45,150 nt of DNA from Planctomycetota bacterium (GTDB lineage Bacteria > Planctomycetota > Planctomycetia > Planctomycetales > Planctomycetaceae), in NCBI GenBank assembly GCA_003670925.1, contig QWQG01000147.1:1-45150 (forward strand). The letters run 5' to 3'. The position numbers were made by a program, and so were the translations under genes. Shown here piece by piece: positions 9,582 through 18,711 of this stretch. Under the pieces are notes generated by a model. That model did not search any database, was not told the origin of the DNA, and saw only the letters and a list, made by a program, of their open reading frames with translations. Positions within the stretch are counted from its first letter, which is position 1, and the number at the start of each line of letters is the position of its first letter.

Positions 9582-10394
9582 ATGGTAGATCGTTTACTTG
9601 AAGGCAAAGTGGCGCTCGTCACAGGAGCAGGACGTGGCTTAGGACGGGCGTTTGCTGAGCATCTGGCATCACTTGGTTGCCGGGTTGGCATTCATGGGAT
9701 GCGTGAGAATGGCCCCGCAGAATACGGTGAAGGCACAACCCTTACCGCGACGGCCGCCGAGATTGCGATGTCACACGGCGTACAGACGTGCCGTGTGCTA
9801 GGTGATTTGACAAACTCTGATGATGTGAAGCGTGTCGTGGGAGACGTGTGTGCTCAGCTCGGTCCGCTCGACATCCTCGTTCACAACGCTGGCGGTGATA
9901 TCGGAGCGGCTGGCGGTAAACCAAATCCGAACGACGCTGTCGAGATCAAACTGGAGGACATCCGTGCTGTACTTGATCGGAACCTGTTGAGCACAATTCT
10001 GGTCTGCCAAGAAGCGGCTCGCGTGATGATGCCACGCAAGTCTGGCCGCATCCTAACACTCAGTTCAATCTCGGCATTTAAAGGGCTTCCCCAAAGTTCG
10101 ATCTATGCTACGGCGAAAGCGGGCGTCGTAGAATACACGCGATGTCTAGCCGAACAATTACGATCCCACAACATCAACGTCAACACTCTGGCACCTGGTG
10201 ACACACGCACCGGCCGCTTTTTGGGAACGCGCAAAGTTGAGGACGCGCGGCTGGTCACTGACGGCACGCTCGACCGCGTCGGCATGGTCGACGAAGTCAC
10301 CCGCGTCGTCGAATTCTTTGCCGGACCTCTCGGTGCCTTCGTGACCGGCCAGGTTCTGCGAGTCGATGGCGGCAGCCAGATCTGGCCTGCTTAG
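9582..10394 (+). CDS. SDR-family oxidoreductase
   Basis: Classical short-chain dehydrogenase/reductase of 270 residues. Seen: the nucleotide-binding motif TGAGRGLGRAFAE near the N terminus, the NAGG motif (LVHNAGGDIG), the catalytic serine in LTLSSISAF, the YxxxK pair in IYATAKAG, and a C-terminal GQVLRVDGG typical of FabG-like enzymes. The protein is cytoplasmic and oxidises or reduces an alcohol/ketone pair; the substrate is unknown. No strong ribosome binding site precedes the ATG. It is transcribed alone after a terminator and converges on leuS, with 145 bases between them that hold a palindromic repeat. Confidence 0.9.
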   Translation: MVDRLLEGKVALVTGAGRGLGRAFAEHLASLGCRVGIHGMRENGPAEYGEGTTLTATAAEIAMSHGVQTCRVLGDLTNSDDVKRVVGDVCAQLGPLDILVHNAGGDIGAAGGKPNPNDAVEIKLEDIRAVLDRNLLSTILVCQEAARVMMPRKSGRILTLSSISAFKGLPQSSIYATAKAGVVEYTRCLAEQLRSHNINVNTLAPGDTRTGRFLGTRKVEDARLVTDGTLDRVGMVDEVTRVVEFFAGPLGAFVTGQVLRVDGGSQIWPA

Positions 10395-10430
10395 TACCGG
10401 CAAGCGATGAAGGCGTCAGCCTACCGGTAC
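10394..10430. repeat. Palindromic dispersed repeat, copy 1
   Basis: Outer arms GTACCGG (10394-10400) and CCGGTAC (10424-10430) enclose an inner hairpin AGGC-GTCA-GCCT. The right part, GGCGTCAGCC, two bases, CCGGTAC (10412-10430), recurs with identical spacing inside the kinase gene at 17600-17618. It lies between the convergent SDR and leuS genes, so it could also help end transcription, but no T-run is present. Confidence 0.6.
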
Positions 10431-10539
10431 AATCACCTCGATAAGTTCAGCCCTGAAACGTTGACCGCGCCACCTTGCATCACAGCACGAAAGCCTCTTG
10501 ACAGCAAGTCGAACAAGAATATCCAACGTACCTGTCCCA

Positions 10540-13500
10540 CTATTTCACGACAAAATTTAGCAACCGACCCGGCACGGCCACAACTTTGACCACCGTCTTG
10601 CCTTCCAAGTTTTTCTGAACGATTTCCTCCGCTCGTGCGGCGGCTTCAAGTGCCGCAGCGTCCGAATTCGCAGGCACGATGATTTTTGCCCGTACCTTGC
10701 CGTTGATCTGGACAGGAACCTCCACCGTATCTTCAACCAGCAACGCCGGGTCGTACGACGGCCACGGGACATAGGTCAGCGTGGTGGAATGTCCAAGCGC
10801 GTGCCATAACTCTTCCGCAATGTGGGGCGCGAACGGATTGAGCAGCAGAACAAATGGCTCCAAGACTGCTTTGCTCCGCGTCTCTTGGCCGGACATAAAG
10901 TTTGTGAATTCCATCATGCGGCTGATCGCTGTATTGAAAGCCAGACGATCAATATCATCAGTAACGGCTTTAATCGTCTTGTGCAGGATGCGTAGTTGAT
11001 CTTCCGCTGGAGCGGTATCAACGACGGCGGCCGACAGGATGACAGCTTCAGCGCGGTCGTCAATCAGCAACCGCCAAACGCGACCAAGGAAGCGATAAAC
11101 ACCTTCGACCCCATTCATCTGCCATGGCTTCACCTGTTCCAACGGCCCCATGAACATCTCATAAAGCCGTAATGCGTCCGCACCATAGTCTTTGACAACG
11201 TGATCAGGATTGACAACGTTTTTCCGGCTCTTGGACATTTTGTCGGTCCGTCCGGTCAATTCAATTTCAGTGCCTTTCAGATGGGCCTTTCCCTTTTCTT
11301 TGGTCACTTGGTCTTCCGTGAGCGGGCGATAGGCGTCGGGATCGTCCGCAGGATTTCGCAGTGCGACAATTTCAGCATCGTCGGTCTTCAGGACCAAGGG
11401 AATTAATCCCATGCCTTCGAACACGGCACGCTGGCGAGCGAAAACTTCAGGACTCACACTGTAATCTGTGTCCCCCAGAATCATCCCCTGATTTACCAGC
11501 TTCTGAAAAGGTTCAGGGCTGCTGACATGCCCACGATCGAACAGTACTTTGTGCCAGAAGCGCGAGTACAGCAAATGCAGCACAGCATGTTCCGCTCCGC
11601 CGATGTAGAGGTCCACCGGCAGCCAGTACTTTTCCTTCGCGGGATCAATGAACTTGTCTGAGTTCTTGTTGTCACAGAAACGCAGGTAATACCAGCAACT
11701 GCCCGCCCATTGCGGCATGCTGTTGGTTTCTCGCTTGAGCTTGACGCCATCGGCAGCGGTCTTGAACAGCCATTCTGGTGTCGCCTTGGCCAACATCGGT
11801 TCCGGTGTTCCGGTGGGCTTAAAGTCGTCCATATGCGGATGCAGGACCGGTAGCGATTCAGCCGTGTCAGCTCGCATGAGTCCCGTTGGATTGCCGTCGG
11901 CATCCAGTTCGTGCCAGATCGGAAACGGCTCTCCCCAGTATCGCTGACGGCTGAACAACCAATCGCGCAGGCGATAGTTCACAGCTTCCTTGCCAAGCCC
12001 TGCCTGTGATAAATGATTTGAGATTTGACATTTGAAATCTGCAGTGGAGAGACCATCGTATTTGCCAGAGTTGGTTGCGACTCCAATTTCCGTGAACGCA
12101 GCATTTCCCAAGTCTACAATGTGACCACTGCTCAGAGGAGGTGCCACAACCTGTCTGATCGTGAGGCCAAACGTCTTCGCAAATTCGTAGTCGCGTTCAT
12201 CATGTCCTGGCACCGCCATGATGGCTCCGGTGCCATAACTGATCAGCACGTAGTCGGCAATCCAAACAGGCACCCTCGCGCCATTCACTGGATTAAGAGC
12301 GTAACCTCCCGTGAACACGCCCGTTTTTTCTTTGGCAAGGTCCGTGCGGTCGAGATCGCTCTTGAGCGATGACTTGCGGATATATTCGGCAACCGCCGGC
12401 CGCTGCCCTTCAGTCGTGATTTTCTGCACGAGCGCGTGTTCAGGAGACAGCACCATGTATGTCACACCGAATAGCGTATCCGGGCGAGTTGTGTAAACTC
12501 GGATGACGTCGAATTCGGGATCGCGCGGGAAGCCGTTGGATTGACGAGTTGCCTTCCATGTCTCGAATTCTGCTGGCGTACCGGAGGGCTGACGCCCATC
12601 GCGCGCCTGTGATTCCTCCTCACTCATCGCCCCGTGCGGCTCAATCCTAAAATCCACTTCCGCACCGGTACTTCGTCCGATCCAATTCCTCTGCATGAAT
12701 TTGATCGAATCGGACCAGTCGAGTTCATCGAGTTCTGTAGCAAGGCGATCTGCGTAAGCCGTGATCCGCAACATCCATTGTTTGAGCGGCATCCGCACAA
12801 CCGGATGGCCGCCGCGTTCGCTTTTGCCATCAATGATTTCTTCATTAGCGAGCACAGTACCAAGGGCAGGGCACCAGTTGACCGGCGCATCGGAAACGTA
12901 GGCGAGGCGATGTTTGTCTTGGTAGCGACGAATGGCTTCCATCACTTCGGGCGAGCGGCCAGTGTCAACTGGCCGGTCCGATGCGTTTGCGGTCTTCACG
13001 GATTGCGCAGATGCCAACGGCTCGGACGTTGTACTGGAGGGTTGACACTCTCCGCTCGCCAGAATATCGTCAGGAATCGGCAGTTCCGCGATCGGACGCC
13101 CCTTGCCTTTTCGCTGAACTCCATCCGGGCCAGTCCAAACGTGATCCGCGTCGTACCAAGTGTCAAAGATCTGCAGGAAGATCCACTGCGTCCAACGATA
13201 ATAATCCGGATCGGTCGTGGCGAGTTCGCGCGTCCAGTCGTAGCTGAACCCCAGCATTTTTAATTGACGCTTGAAAGTGGCAATGTTCTGTTCCGTTGTC
13301 TCCCGAGGATGCGTGCCGGTCTTGACGGCATGTTCTTCGGCTGGAAGTCCAAAGGCATCCCAGCCCATCGGATGCAAGACGTGTCTCCCCTTCATCCGTG
13401 CGTAACGGCAGACGATATCAGTGGCCGTGTAGCCCTCAGGATGTCCCACATGCAGACCGCTGCCAGACGGGTACGGAAACATGTCGAGCACATACAGTTT

Positions 13501-13614
13501 GGGCTTCTTTGCCGCGTCGCCCGTCGGAACAGTGTCCTCCGTGCGAAACGTCTGGTTCGTTTCCCAAGACTGCTGCCAGTGAGCTTCAATACGTTTGGCG
13601 TCATAACGAGGCAT
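10540..13614 (-). CDS. leuS: Leucyl-tRNA synthetase
   Basis: Class I aminoacyl-tRNA synthetase charging tRNA-Leu. Seen: the HIGH-type motif HVGH within [12 protein letters not shown], the zinc/CP1 region with the editing-site threonines (TTRPDTLFG), the KMSKS motif ([13 protein letters not shown]), the anticodon-binding domain, and the C-terminal [14 protein letters not shown] segment. The frame stays open back to 13890, but the real start is ATG 13614 ([14 protein letters not shown]), giving 1024 residues. That is long compared with about 860 in most bacteria. Part of the excess, residues about 185-222, is encoded by an inverted-repeat element at 12950-13060 and is low in complexity. The gene is divergent from purB and otherwise looks intact. 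Confidence 0.96.
12950..13060. repeat. REPIN-like inverted-repeat element inside leuS
   Basis: Two 20-base arms (12950-12969 and 13041-13060) are inverted copies matching at 18 of 20 positions; the consensus begins GGCGAGCGG and ends AGTGTCAAC. They are separated by 71 bases. The left arm also forms its own hairpin, CGGCCAGT-GTCA-ACTGGCCG (12956-12975). The 111 bases equal exactly 37 codons and read through in frame as a Ser/Thr/Ala-rich peptide between conserved parts of LeuRS. The size and architecture resemble paired REP elements (REPINs). No transposase lies in the window. Confidence 0.7.
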
Positions 13615-13637
13615 AATGTGTTTTCGTCGATTCAAAT

Positions 13638-13663
13638 CGTAGGATGGACATTCATGTCCGTCG
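13638..13663. repeat. GGACAT-palindrome dispersed repeat, copy 1
   Basis: The perfect palindrome GGACAT-TC-ATGTCC (13646-13659) lies in the leuS-purB intergenic region. The 26 bases from 13638 match 23 of 26 positions at 21374-21399, after the second DUF1501 gene. It sits in the 275-base divergent promoter region, so an operator role cannot be excluded, but the second copy lies downstream of a gene, which favours a dispersed repeat. Confidence 0.55.
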
Positions 13664-13889
13664 TATCTGTCTGGTCGGTCGTCATAATCTCCTCGCAGTT
13701 TATTCAACCCACGCCACGATTCAACGTGGTCGAATCCCTCTGTCTCAGCAGATCCCGATTGTGCGACAGGCACGGCGGTGTCTTCCGATATGTCTGGTGC
13801 CGGTGAATTTCGCTGCAGACTGTGGTAATCTTCGGTCGCAAGCTGACGGATCAGACCGATCGAACTGATTTGTCGGAGATTTATCAACA

Positions 13890-15341
13890 ATGAAATCGAA
13901 AGCCCACACTGTGTCCCACGACATCTATGAAAACCCGCTCATTACGCGATACGCATCCCGCGAAATGGCAACCATCTGGTCAGGACAAAAGAAGCATTCG
14001 ACTTGGCGGCGATTGTGGATCGCGCTCGCTGAATGTCAGCAGAAACTCGGCCTGAACATCACAGATGCACAGCTCAACGAAATGCGAGCCAACATCGACA
14101 ACGTCGATTTTAATGCGGCTGACCGTTACGAACGAGAACTCCGACACGACGTCATGGCGCACGTTCACGCCTGGGGTGATCAGTGTCCCAATGCCCGACC
14201 GATCGTGCATCTGGGAGCCACAAGCTGTTTCGTTACCGACAACTCGGAACTCATTCAAATCAAGGAAAGTCTGTTCCTCATTCGCCGCCGCTTGGTTCAG
14301 GTGATCGACCAACTGGCGACATTCGCCGCGCAGTACCGCAACCTCCCATGCCTAGGGTTCACGCATCTTCAGCCCGCTCAGCCGACAACCGTGGGAAAAC
14401 GTGCGACGCTTTGGTGTTGGGATCTGTTGCTGGATCTGGAAGAAATCGAACACCGGCTGGCAACGCTGCGATTTCGAGGCGTCAAGGGAACTACGGGGAC
14501 TCAGGCAACCTTCCTGACGCTGTTCCATGGTGATCATCACAAAGTGGAACAACTGGATCGCATGGTGACGGAAGCTATGGGGTTCAGTCTGAAACATCCC
14601 GTCACCGGCCAGACGTATTCCCGCAAGATCGACAGTCACGTCATGGCCGCCTTGAATGGCGTTGGTCAGACATGTCACAAAGCGGGCGCTGACATTCGCA
14701 TCCTGCAGCACCGTAAGGAAGTGGAAGAACCTTTTGGAAGCAAGCAGATTGGTTCGTCGGCCATGGCCTACAAACGCAACCCCATGCGGAGCGAACGGAT
14801 GTGCTCACTGGCTCGGTTTGCAATGAGTCTTCAGGCTGGAGCCGATGCGACCATGGCGAATCAGTGGATGGAACGTACGCTGGACGACAGTGCCATTCGA
14901 AGACTGGGACTACCGCAGTCGTTTCTGGCAATCGATGCCTGCCTGATTCTGTACCGTAATATCTCGGACGGATTGGTCGTGTATCCGAAGGTGATCGAAA
15001 AAAATCTTGCGGCAGAACTGCCGTTCATGGCAACCGAAGAGATTCTCATGGCCGGCGTGCAGGCGGGTGGCGACCGTCAGGAACTGCACGAGCAAATCCG
15101 AGTTCACAGCCAAGCAGCGGCGGATCAAGTGAAGCAGCAGGGTTCGGATAACGATCTCATCAGCAGGCTGCAAGCTGACCCGCACTTCGCCGCCGTGGAT
15201 CTGGCAGGGACTCTGGATGCTAGCCGATACGTCGGCCGTGCTCCGGAACAGGTCGATCAATTCATTCAGGAATGCGTGCAGCCGGTGCGGCATTTGTATG
15301 CTGCCGATCTAGCTGGCGCGTCGGAGGATCTGCGAGTGTAG
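13890..15341 (+). CDS. purB: Adenylosuccinate lyase
   Basis: Member of the fumarase/aspartase superfamily, 483 residues. PurB removes fumarate at two steps of purine nucleotide synthesis. Seen: the [11 protein letters not shown] segment near residue 110, [14 protein letters not shown] with a catalytic histidine region, [10 protein letters not shown], and the superfamily signature [15 protein letters not shown], in which the mobile serine loop precedes KRNP. The length agrees with eukaryotic-type PurB enzymes. The ATG at 13890 has GGAG about 11 bases before it. It is transcribed away from leuS, with about 190 bases to the next gene. No defects were noticed. Confidence 0.94.
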
Positions 15342-15529
15342 AGTACAGGCCGGACCATGCCCACCGCCGTTCCGGCAAACGCATCGAGTCTGCCCGCGAA
15401 GCACGCGAAAGGGCGAGAATAAAGTCGGAAAAGATTCACGTCTAGATGCGTGATTCGCGGGTAAAAAGCCCTTAATGCCCATGTCATTCGTGAATAACCC
15501 CTCTCTTCTTATTGCCACATGGATCACCA

Positions 15530-16549
15530 ATGCGCGCCGGAAAACTCGTCAGTCGTCGTCAGATAGAATTGGTTGAGATCCAAGAACCTCAACTGCCGTC
15601 GGCTAACTTGTCGTCAGGGCAGATTATTTTTCAGCCGGAAATGACGTGTCTGTGTGGTTCGGATCTGCCATTTTTCGACGGCGACTTCGAAGGACATCCA
15701 ATCGAATATCCGCAGCCTGTCGGCATGTCACTCCATGAAATGGTCGGCACGGTGATCGATACAAACGGCAAACGCTGGAAACCCGGAAGTAGAGTCCTCG
15801 CCGTGCCGATCGGACAAAATGGCTTATTCGAACGCTTTGTACTTCCTGAAGAGCGCGTCGTTGCGTTGGATCCCCGCCTTTCAGACGAGATGGCGATGCT
15901 GGCCCAGCCATTCGGGACGGTTGTGCACGCCCTGAAAAAATTGCCAAATATGATTGACCGAGACGTCGTCGTGCTGGGACAGGGACCGATTGGGCAGATG
16001 TTCAATACCGGCTTGCGAAACATGGGAGCACGGCGGATTATTGGAATTGATCCATTGGTCGCACGTTTAAAAATTAGCCACACGATGGGAGCGACCAACA
16101 CGATTTGCGGCAAAGGCATGGACGCAGGGGAACAGGTGCGTGAGATTCTGACCGGTGAATTACCCGAGATCGTAATCGAAGCCGTCGGCCATCAGGCCCA
16201 GGCCTTGAACGACGCAATTGAACTCACGCGGCCGTTCGGCCAGATTCTGTATTTTGGCGTCCCAGCCCATACGATTGATGGGGTGAAACTCCGAGCCGCA
16301 TTGTTCAAGAATCTTGTGATCACCACCAGCATTCATCCCGATTTCGAACGCACGTTTCCACTCGCCATGCAATGGATCGCCGAAGGTCGAGTCAACCTGA
16401 AACCGCTCATCACACATCGGTTTCCGCTATCACAGATCCAGCAGGCGTTCGACACGTTCCGAGATCGTATTGACGGGGCGCAGAAAGTGCTGGTGGAATT
16501 CCCGAGTTGGAAGCAAGGGAAGTCATTTCATGACGAGCGGGGTACGTAA
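15530..16549 (+). CDS. Zinc-type alcohol dehydrogenase family protein (MDR)
   Basis: Medium-chain dehydrogenase of 339 residues. Seen: the catalytic-zinc cysteine in CLCGSDLPFF, an LHEMVG motif in place of the usual GHE, and an NAD-binding motif (VVLGQGPIGQMF). The four-cysteine structural-zinc lobe of classical alcohol dehydrogenases is absent. Such enzymes oxidise polyols or similar alcohols, but the substrate here is unknown. The frame extends to a TTG at 15512; ATG 15530 is the better start. The last codons overlap a short repeat (16531-16548, also at 21361-21377), so the C-terminal tail may be altered by repeat sequence. It converges on the kinase gene with only five bases between stops. 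Confidence 0.85.
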   Translation: MRAGKLVSRRQIELVEIQEPQLPSANLSSGQIIFQPEMTCLCGSDLPFFDGDFEGHPIEYPQPVGMSLHEMVGTVIDTNGKRWKPGSRVLAVPIGQNGLFERFVLPEERVVALDPRLSDEMAMLAQPFGTVVHALKKLPNMIDRDVVVLGQGPIGQMFNTGLRNMGARRIIGIDPLVARLKISHTMGATNTICGKGMDAGEQVREILTGELPEIVIEAVGHQAQALNDAIELTRPFGQILYFGVPAHTIDGVKLRAALFKNLVITTSIHPDFERTFPLAMQWIAEGRVNLKPLITHRFPLSQIQQAFDTFRDRIDGAQKVLVEFPSWKQGKSFHDERGT

Positions 16550-16554
16550 GTGCC

Positions 16555-18234
16555 CTATTTTTTCTCATCGACCCTTTTTTGGTGCATACCGTGAATCAGT
16601 TCGAGCGTATCCTGAGTTGTTTTTAGCAGTGAATTCAGCTGCGGCTGAATTTCCCCGACTCCATCGAGCTTGCGTGCAAGACTCAACAGATCCGGATGAC
16701 CGGAAGCCATGGGTAATGAAGCAGAACTCTGAAGAAAATCGGCCACCTTGAGATTATCTCCCGCTGACTGTCCGTCGTCTGGAATCTTCAGTAACCGGTT
16801 TTCTGGCCACGTCACAAACGGCCCAATTTGTCCTCCACCATACGCGATGTTCTTCCAAAGCCACATTCGCCACTTTTCATCACCCTTTTCAAATTGCTCA
16901 ACCCAGAGTGTGTAAAAGTCGGCATCCGGATTTGCTTTTACCAGCACTTCGAATGCAGCTTGGTCGAGCAGGGTATCGGGCGGTTGATCATTCAGATGGA
17001 ACTCACCGTCCAGCGTGGGAACGACACGGAGAATTGTCTGTGTGATCAGGTCGGACGTGTCCGGTGAAACCAAGGCCTTGCACGTATCAAACGCCGATTT
17101 TAATCCTGCCGGGCTGCGTTCGCGGGACAGCATTTCCAGCCATTGGCTCAGCGTCTTGCCGTCGTAGAGCGGTTCAGTGGTTTGAAGCGCCGGAGCCTCA
17201 TTCGGAATTCCAGCGATGGCCGTTGGCGCTGGTGCAGGCTCTAATGTTGGGCTCAGGCGGATTCTGGCAATCACCGTCGTACCACTCTGAAGCGTGAATT
17301 GATTGTTGTCGATTGTAAGTCCATCGCTCGGGCCATCGATGATGATTTCATACTTGTCAGCACGCAGGCGAGTGGCAGTAGCACCTTGATTAATGGAAAG
17401 TCCACTGACCGGTTTACCATCATGGATGATCTGAACTTTGACGTTGGCAACGTCGGATTCAATGACAAGCTGGCCCTTCTCCGTTTCCAGCTTGACGAAG
17501 ATTCCAGCGATGAGCAGTAGCGGCAGAATGGCTGCGGTGACGAGCCAGCGCCGCTTTCTTCGGCCACCGTCGATGTTCGCAGCCTCAGGTGAGCGGGGTG
17601 GCGTCAGCCCCCCGGTACTTCTGCGTTCCCCGCGTCGATTGCGTTCCGACGCGATCGGTTCCGGCGACAGAGCCTCCTTCTCCTGCGCTCGTTTCAGCAG
17701 GCTCACGAGATTCGCCGATTCCGTGAACGCTGCGAGTTGCTCGGCCACATGAGCGGCACTCGCAGGGCGATCCTGCGCACTGCGTGCCAGCATTGATCCA
17801 ACCAAAGCCGCCAGTTCTGCCGGTGCTTCGGGACATAACGTGTCCAGCTTCGGCGGCTGATGATTGGCCAGCATTCGCAATTTTTCCAGAGGCGACTGGT
17901 TCGGAGCAGCCGCGAGAGGCGGTCGCCCACAGAGTAATCGAAACAGCGTGGCTCCCATGCCATACAGGTCGGCTCGATAATCCACGCCGCCGCTGAGTTC
18001 TGCCTGTTCCGGGGCCATGTAGTCCAGCGTCCCCATCAACTGTCCGACCGTTGTGAGATCGACACTCGCTTCATCCCAGACGCTCAACTGCGCCAGCCCG
18101 AAGTCCAGAAACTGAGTGCGATCGATCTCGCCCGCATCTGTTGCTGCCACGATCGATGGATGATTCAACCGGCCAACAACACGAATCTCACGTTGAAATC
18201 GAGCCCGCACGTCGGAGTCTTCGGAAGACATCAT
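16555..18234 (-). CDS. Internally deleted Ser/Thr protein kinase (pseudokinase or decaying gene)
   Basis: A 559-codon frame of the planctomycete membrane-anchored Hanks kinase type. It begins at the alpha-C region (REIRVVGRLNHPSIV), so the glycine loop and catalytic lysine are missing. At residue 43 it jumps from DRTQF straight into LDFGLAQL, so the hinge and the whole HRDxKxxN loop are gone. The DFG, MAPE and RADLYGMGATLFRLL segments remain. Next come the in-frame repeat peptide GGLTPPRSP (about 211), one transmembrane helix (about 232-252), a PEGA-like domain, and a C-terminal region starting YDGKTLSQWLEML. The product cannot be an active kinase. The long frame without stops suggests recent decay or a retained scaffold role. 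Its ATG overlaps the stop of the zinc-finger gene. Confidence 0.8.
   Translation of the reverse strand: MMSSEDSDVRARFQREIRVVGRLNHPSIVAATDAGEIDRTQFLDFGLAQLSVWDEASVDLTTVGQLMGTLDYMAPEQAELSGGVDYRADLYGMGATLFRLLCGRPPLAAAPNQSPLEKLRMLANHQPPKLDTLCPEAPAELAALVGSMLARSAQDRPASAAHVAEQLAAFTESANLVSLLKRAQEKEALSPEPIASERNRRGERRSTGGLTPPRSPEAANIDGGRRKRRWLVTAAILPLLLIAGIFVKLETEKGQLVIESDVANVKVQIIHDGKPVSGLSINQGATATRLRADKYEIIIDGPSDGLTIDNNQFTLQSGTTVIARIRLSPTLEPAPAPTAIAGIPNEAPALQTTEPLYDGKTLSQWLEMLSRERSPAGLKSAFDTCKALVSPDTSDLITQTILRVVPTLDGEFHLNDQPPDTLLDQAAFEVLVKANPDADFYTLWVEQFEKGDEKWRMWLWKNIAYGGGQIGPFVTWPENRLLKIPDDGQSAGDNLKVADFLQSSASLPMASGHPDLLSLARKLDGVGEIQPQLNSLLKTTQDTLELIHGMHQKRVDEKK
17600..17618. repeat. Palindromic dispersed repeat, copy 2, inside the kinase gene
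   Basis: GGCGTCAGCC (17600-17609), two bases, CCGGTAC (17612-17618) repeats the arrangement found at 10412-10430. On the coding strand it specifies part of the Pro/Gly-rich juxtamembrane peptide GGLTPPRSP. Next to it is an inverted repeat, CGCGTCG (17631-17637) with CGACGCG (17647-17653). Confidence 0.55.
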
Positions 18235-18482
18235 CGATGTGTTTGAGCCTTTTCAACCGCCGGGCTTTGCAACCACTGCAGCAGCGTGTCTGGCTTGATG
18301 TCAAGTTCCCTCAACGACTGCTCGCAAGCCGGACAAGTTGCCAGATGAATTTCGATGCGTTCAGCTTGAACTTTATCGCACGAGCCGGAAAGGTATTGTT
18401 TGAGTTCATCCGGCGACATGCACGTCGCCGGATCCCGTGAAGACACTGCCGATGTCGCCGAGGCTGCCGTGGAATGCGTCAT
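18231..18482 (-). CDS. Zinc-finger (anti-sigma-like) small protein, likely the detached N terminus of the kinase
   Basis: An 83-residue soluble protein with the pattern CMSPDELKQYL...HLATCPAC, a Hx3Cx2C zinc-binding motif typical of anti-sigma zinc fingers. In planctomycetes this domain commonly forms the N terminus of Ser/Thr kinases paired with ECF sigma factors. Here its TGA overlaps the ATG of the kinase remnant (ATGA), in a different frame. The simplest reading is that one deletion removed the linker and P-loop and left the two parts out of frame. The alternative is a real, translationally coupled two-gene arrangement. It is divergent from the ECF sigma remnant. Confidence 0.65.
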   Translation of the reverse strand: MTHSTAASATSAVSSRDPATCMSPDELKQYLSGSCDKVQAERIEIHLATCPACEQSLRELDIKPDTLLQWLQSPAVEKAQTHR

Positions 18483-18553
18483 CGTTTGAACCTTTTGCCA
18501 AGTTTGTTCAGTCCAAATTGTCCGCCATCGTGTGCCAAAAAGCCAGTGTCATC

Positions 18554-18637: not shown

Positions 18638-18711
18638 CCATACAAGCACGAAGCGCAAGCGAGTGAATGACTTGCGGCAAATTCACTCGCTTGCGCTTCG
18701 TGCTTGTATGG
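18638..18711. repeat. Perfect inverted repeat with 31-bp arms
   Basis: Arms 18638-18668 and 18681-18711 are exact reverse complements, 31 bases each, around a 12-base loop. It lies between the divergent zinc-finger/kinase and ECF sigma genes. A stem this long and exact cannot be chance and would form a strong hairpin or cruciform. Neither side has a T-run, so a dispersed palindromic repeat is likelier than a simple terminator. Confidence 0.85.

Follow-up and report, generated by a model that had tools for sequence, protein, structure and literature searches.

The leucyl-tRNA synthetase gene studied here carries a short palindromic element within its reading frame, which raises the question of what kind of element this is, how it came to lie in an essential gene and whether the enzyme gains anything from it. 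Mobile hairpins of the REPIN kind are normally intergenic. The gene lies in what we call the window, the whole stretch of 45,150 nucleotides that was analysed (contig QWQG01000147.1 of an uncultured Planctomycetota bacterium, whose genome is G000 below; other genomes are numbered likewise). We consider it very probable that the element is a REPIN of a RAYT-moved family which landed in a tolerant loop and has been kept there as a passenger.

The leuS product shows editing, catalytic and anticodon domains, and its best Foldseek match is E. coli LeuRS. Its start at 13614 is our own choice, on which the residue numbering depends. The features of the locus are the following:

10540 to 13614, minus strand: leuS, leucyl-tRNA synthetase, 1024 aa, from domain matches and Foldseek.
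12946 to 13056, minus strand: leuS codons 187-223, the 37 residues made by the REPIN, from the open frame and the alignment.
12950 to 12979, plus strand: left REP hairpin of the leuS REPIN, GGCGAG-CGGCCAGT-GTCA-ACTGGCCG-GTCC.
12980 to 13030, plus strand: spacer of the leuS REPIN; own-genome matches stop near the arms.
13031 to 13060, minus strand: right REP hairpin of the leuS REPIN, inverted, GGCGAG-CGGAGAGT-GTCA-ACCCTCCA-GTAC.
12578 to 12607, minus strand: second REP, single and in frame in leuS, GGCGCGCGATGGGCGTCAGCCCTCCGGTAC, peptide ARDGRQPSG (residues 337-345).

Comparison of the arms confirms the geometry given in the original prediction. Two inverted 20-base arms (12950-12969, GGCGAGCGGCCAGTGTCAAC, and 13041-13060, as reverse complement GGCGAGCGGAGAGTGTCAAC) share 18 of their 20 positions and are separated by 71 bases, and the REPIN spans 111 nt, or 37 codons, of leuS. 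A repeat search lengthens the arms to 24 nt at 88% identity. Each arm also forms a hairpin of its own, with a mismatch in the right-arm stem, and the element has the paired layout of a REPIN, two inverted REPs with a short spacer between them. The second REP belongs to the same family as the REPIN arms and was absent from the original prediction. A chance palindrome was rejected, both on the folding of the element strand (z = -4.4, with none of 200 shuffles as good) and on counts of the arm pattern, which at up to three mismatches matches three places in the window, the two leuS arms included, where 0.19 are expected, and which exceeds the reversed controls given below. The other eight own-genome matches to the element cover the arms and extend at most a few bases past them, while 38 of the middle 51 bases of the insert (12976-13026) are common to the copy in G014. 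Between these two copies the left stem differs by a double change that keeps the pairing, a T-A pair in G000 being C-G in G014, and the right REP of G000 has one stem mismatch and has lost its outer pair. Neither a target-site duplication nor an exact empty site was established for the leuS copy, and a search of a plasmid collection at E 0.01 gave no match to it.

The element had also been suggested to be a mobile or dispersed repeat, and other copies of its arms are indeed found across the genome and the genus. With up to two mismatches the arm pattern occurs at 44 places in G000; as its reversed form occurs at 22, part of the weaker matches are chance. Typing of 59 places, merged into 54 fetched regions with the window's own copies left out, gave 62 elements against 4 in reversed sequence; this count leaves out C118, C172, C191:6498, C243 and C251, which are not REP-like by eye, and C37:4684, which lies outside its region. 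For G004, 57 regions were typed from the 100 listed of 124 places, and for G014 six chosen regions of 79 planned. Paired elements make up 30 of 62 in G000 and 41 of 90 in G004, the remainder being single, and the REPINs among those listed are 70-164 nt long. The commonest form in G000 is GGCGAGCGGCATGCGTCAG(CTTGCCGGTAC). A related pattern is found in 12 of 18 genomes of the same genus, with up to 288 copies, and the reversed pattern has no match in any of them. The many copies that are typical of REPINs are thus present in both the own genome and the genus.

The stems of these arms covary. A set of 19 arms chosen among 44 distinct ones shows 92% pairing over the eight stem pairs, and its covariation score is 0.441 against 0.173 when shuffled, with none of 500 shuffles as high; two of the five measures, pairs with a double change and further pair types, were not above the shuffles (240 and 428 of 500). 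The tails of the arms vary between species. GTA follows at least 49 of 92 arms in G000, giving GTAC at the stem foot, and CTA at least 3; in G004 at least 100 of 131 arms are followed by AGT, AGC or TGT, both counts being taken over the 12 commonest tails. In the direction of the stem the tail mostly reads GTAC in G000, and in G004 it is mostly ACTCGG-, GCTCGG- or ACACGG-like. GTAG at the stem foot, which characterises the GTAG REP super-family, is not the mark of the family arms in these two genomes. Many of the G000 copies are enclosed by a larger inverted unit, whose left end is ATACTCCGCGCGG-like and whose right end is CCGCGCGGAGTAT-like; at L014, L020, L034 and similar loci the unit with ATACTCCGCGCGG-like ends may be a separate mobile element. 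Elsewhere in the window, the open reading frame at 16555-18234 (minus strand), which has a protein-kinase domain, contains a single in-frame family REP at 17588-17614 with the peptide STGGLTPPRSPE.

The distribution of possible movers follows that of the REPs. Y1-type genes (PF01797) are present in the same 12 genomes as the REPs and absent from the same six, and the two counts rise together (Spearman 0.94, and 0.81 within the 12 genomes, neither corrected for kinship). G014 encodes P0001, a RAYT-like protein of 185 residues whose gene is flanked by two family REPINs. Ten genes of the P0001 type, P0001 included, are full-length or nearly so; they come from six genomes, and each has family arms within 1.5 kb at up to five mismatches, a threshold at which the background is 19 arms in 390,686 bases of G000. 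None of the five weaker homologues has family arms within 1.5 kb. P0001 scores 25.8 bits with Pfam Y1_Tnp, above the cut-off of 23, and 31.5 bits with the NCBIfam RAYT model NF047646, below its cut-off of 80. All ten aligned relatives have an H-x-H and, at one C-terminal place, a tyrosine, which we take to be the HUH motif and the catalytic residue.

The link between family and RAYT comes from six of the 12 REP-bearing genomes. Draft genomes G003, G005, G016, G017 and G009 have REPs and no full-length P0001-type match, with one weak match in G009. RAYT-type genes, which the original prediction proposed to look for, lie beside family copies in six relatives; in G000 an intact P0001-type gene was not found, only a fragment. 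This C-terminal fragment of 73 aligned residues adjoins a REPIN, has D at the presumed catalytic tyrosine place and does not include the residues that precede the HUH motif. Its closest match is the C456 gene of G006 (40 of 73 residues identical), and the arms near that gene and the leuS copy have GTGTCAAC and GGTAC-like features in common. As a C-terminal fragment is all that is left of it, the P0001-type mover is probably gone from G000. L043 or L041, which are among the five Y1 matches of that genome, might move the family there: the score of L043, 80.1, lies just above the RAYT cut-off of 80, and one family arm is found about 780 bases from this gene; L041 is truncated by the end of a contig. 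Family arms were not found near L042 and L044. By eye, L042 (C136), L044 (C155) and L040 (C170) have other palindromes at their flanks, which suggests several REP systems in one genome. At 18641-18708 of the window, TACAAGCACGAAGCGCAAGCGAG is present in two inverted copies, which form a REPIN-like unit belonging to another family and resemble the palindromes beside the L044 Y1 gene.

Given the paired layout, the covarying stems and the copies beside RAYT-type genes in six relatives, the identity of the leuS element as a REPIN in the broad sense is well supported. The accessible text of PMC8049555 describes REPINs as two inverted REPs with a diverse spacer, present in many copies and linked to RAYT genes, with single REPs existing as well. 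Against that description, the paired REPs, the many copies, the RAYT-adjacent copies in relatives and the single REPs are the same here, whereas the copy in an essential gene, the reduction of the own matching RAYT to a fragment and the several Y1 genes are different. GTAG REPs, according to the accessible parts of PMC3733652, are dispersed tagged stem-loops linked to RAYT genes and occur in the group containing planctomycetes; they lie within many genes, in-frame insertion is known, and intragenic copies are reported in tRNA synthetases of X. oryzae, E. lithoralis and S. alaskensis (spelling of that paper). The present family shares the dispersed tagged stem-loops, the RAYT link and the insertion in genes including tRNA synthetases, but its tag is not GTAG, and it recurs in the Leu, Ile and Val synthetases of one genus. 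Rickettsia palindromic elements, compared by description only, are in the accessible text of PMC10969869 about 150 bp long, encode a conserved peptide and lie in frame in many unrelated genes. Palindromic elements in frame in many unrelated genes are found here too, but the length of about 150 bp together with a conserved peptide is not.

An alignment of LeuRS from relatives shows where the enzyme accepts such insertions. Among the matches listed, LeuRS matches in many of 58 other genomes stop near residue 189 and resume near 225. The alignment has 24 rows, 22 of which, our own included, are readable at this place (site 1). Here 14 of the 22 have a short spacer only, G005 and G015 among them, so that the insert, put at about residues 185-222 in the original prediction and at 187-223 here, is missing from related enzymes, a point that the prediction proposed to check. 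Neither outcome on which that prediction would have failed, the same peptide conserved in LeuRS of distant planctomycetes or an absence of other genomic arm copies, was seen. A REPIN occupies site 1 in G000, G014, G001 and G004, and other inserts are found there in G012, G017, G021 and G006; those of G012 and G017 (L048 and L407) are of a SENRKLK type and come from TTTTCGGTTTTC-like DNA. The site 1 copies of G000 and G014 can be aligned with each other, and G001 and G004 have another subtype in the same place. G005 and G015, which have no insert at site 1, are sisters of G004 in the tree. At site 2, the place of the second REP, G000 and G014 have a single REP and G001, G004 and G005 a REPIN. 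The LeuRS tree leaves the order of G000, G001 and G014 unresolved (support for G000 with G014 is 75/60), and a single old insertion followed by loss and exchange is therefore indistinguishable from repeated insertion.

The arrival of the element in leuS could be explained as follows. A copy of this non-autonomous element, belonging to a family moved by a RAYT (an HUH tyrosine transposase), presumably through single-stranded DNA, would have landed in a length-tolerant loop of leuS; the RAYT-REP reaction is the subject of PMC8266576, in its accessible text. With a length of 111 nt and no stop in that frame, the unit left the leuS reading frame intact, and the enzyme would thereby have gained a disordered segment of 37 residues and, we infer, would have continued to work, with the copy persisting as a neutral passenger. 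In a phmmer comparison, residues 1-151 and 237-325 align to Thermus LeuRS, which has two residues between these blocks. In the AlphaFold model (mean pLDDT 85.2, 30 sequences in the alignment) four stretches have a pLDDT below 50, the two longest being 190-217 and 337-344. Both of these REP-derived stretches are thus predicted to be disordered, bearing in mind that residues without aligned relatives tend to get low pLDDT anyway.

The leuS insertion is not the only one of its kind. Judged by the coding scores of both flanks, elements in frame within ORFs number 13 of 90 in G004, 6 of 62 in G000 and, for the chosen regions, 2 of 12 in G014. The remaining elements lie beside or between coding flanks, change the frame, fall at a stop or have non-coding flanks. 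These calls were made with a hexamer score, which is right for 98.7% of 240-nt windows from its own training ORFs, and which replaced an earlier codon-usage classifier with a fixed threshold (2 in-frame elements in G004, none in G000 and G014). Different host genes read the element in different frames, with three types of peptide, SGRASALR...GGLTPNRSP, RRAAGRQPS-like and ERQGVSPPS-like, and the 15 scanned host ORFs include tRNA synthetases, DUF7133, squalene-hopene cyclase-type and TPR proteins and a helicase.

The insertions recur in three related synthetases. Arms with up to three mismatches are found in the frames of Leu, Ile or Val synthetases in 14 of 24 gene-genome pairs from eight REP-bearing genomes (Leu 5, Ile 5, Val 4), and in none of the 16 pairs of the controls AlaRS and RpoB; these arm counts are not independent events, because arms are paired and genomes share ancestry, and the control genes are two only. 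The REP-less G007 and G010 have no arms at this threshold in any of the five genes, and at up to five mismatches there is one match, in the IleRS of G010, which we take for chance. ValRS and IleRS were named from Pfam domains and length rather than from a tree. The count leaves out G012, G013 and a 250-residue ORF of G014 (L453), all without arms there, and includes partial loci (ValRS of G003, G015, G014 and others, IleRS of G015; among the controls AlaRS of G003, G015 and G010 and RpoB of G006). In G000 the Leu, Ile and Val genes have 7 arms in 10,371 bases, with none in IleRS, compared with 1 arm in 235,434 bases of long ORFs in a 390,686-base sample of chosen contigs. It is possible, and we suggest it tentatively, that loops of the Leu/Ile/Val editing synthetases are places of repeated entry and turnover for the RAYT-linked REPINs of this genus, where the arm subtype of the resident family replaces older copies. 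These enzymes would then be a favoured sink, either because targeting is linked to replication or because a change in loop length is tolerated or even of benefit.

Such a pattern might also be expected if the element were a coding mobile element favoured for being read in frame and supplying useful linkers, and the in-frame cases and the Leu/Ile/Val recurrence do speak for this. We nevertheless regard it as unlikely. Of the 37 codons of the insert, 8 differ between G000 and G014 at the first position, 8 at the second and 6 at the third, and this equal divergence indicates that its amino acids are under no constraint of their own. Counted per element, open frames are as numerous as in one random draw of stretches of the same length, or slightly more so: in G004 2.56 against 2.56 for REPINs and 5.04 against 4.69 for single REPs, in G000 3.6 against 3.07 and 5.13 against 4.59. 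There is thus little or no excess. Several frames are used, most elements are not in frame inside genes, and the sisters of G004 do without the insert at site 1. Together with the predicted disorder of both REP-derived stretches, the equal codon-position divergence makes a tolerated passenger a better fit than a selected linker. The original prediction had allowed for an element that either tolerates in-frame reading or is selected for it, and of these the first is the better fit, while the second was not supported.

It is similarly improbable that we are dealing with a miniature transposon that belongs to a DDE transposase, is bounded by long terminal repeats and has the REP-like arms in its interior. 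The outer ends that enclose many G000 copies would fit such an element, but these ends are missing from the leuS copy and from others, among them L019, L023, L027 and L029, and the family arms adjoin RAYT genes.

The passenger reading has to account for one further observation, which is the slow divergence of the insert. It differs at 22 of 111 positions compared with 208 of 440 fourfold sites in the rest of leuS (P = 9e-8), and its third positions alone at 6 of 37 (P = 0.0002), which argues against simple neutrality since a shared insertion. Constraint on the hairpin or later exchange between copies or lineages could be the reason. A palindrome retained because its RNA or DNA structure influences leuS expression would agree with this slowness, third positions included, and with the double change that preserves the left stem, but it is the least probable of the explanations, given that 14 of 22 readable rows lack the insert, that the right stem is weakened in G000 and that Rfam gives no match at the gathering threshold over positions 10000-18500.

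We therefore see the leuS insert, as a passenger REPIN, as a known kind of element in an unusual and recurrent home. Intragenic REPs have been published before, those in tRNA synthetases included, and the apparent novelty is that they recur in Leu, Ile and Val synthetases; the titles and abstracts of the literature on REPINs in planctomycetes, in coding genes and in synthetases, with incomplete coverage of journals, contained nothing closer. This excess deserves a proper test. The genus offers a natural series of close species in which fixed points of essential enzymes carry no mobile hairpin, one, two or one of another subtype, and the genomes without REPs and Y1 genes provide a built-in control. 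Such a series permits tests of whether REPINs are harmless within proteins, of how they turn over and of why three related synthetases collect them.
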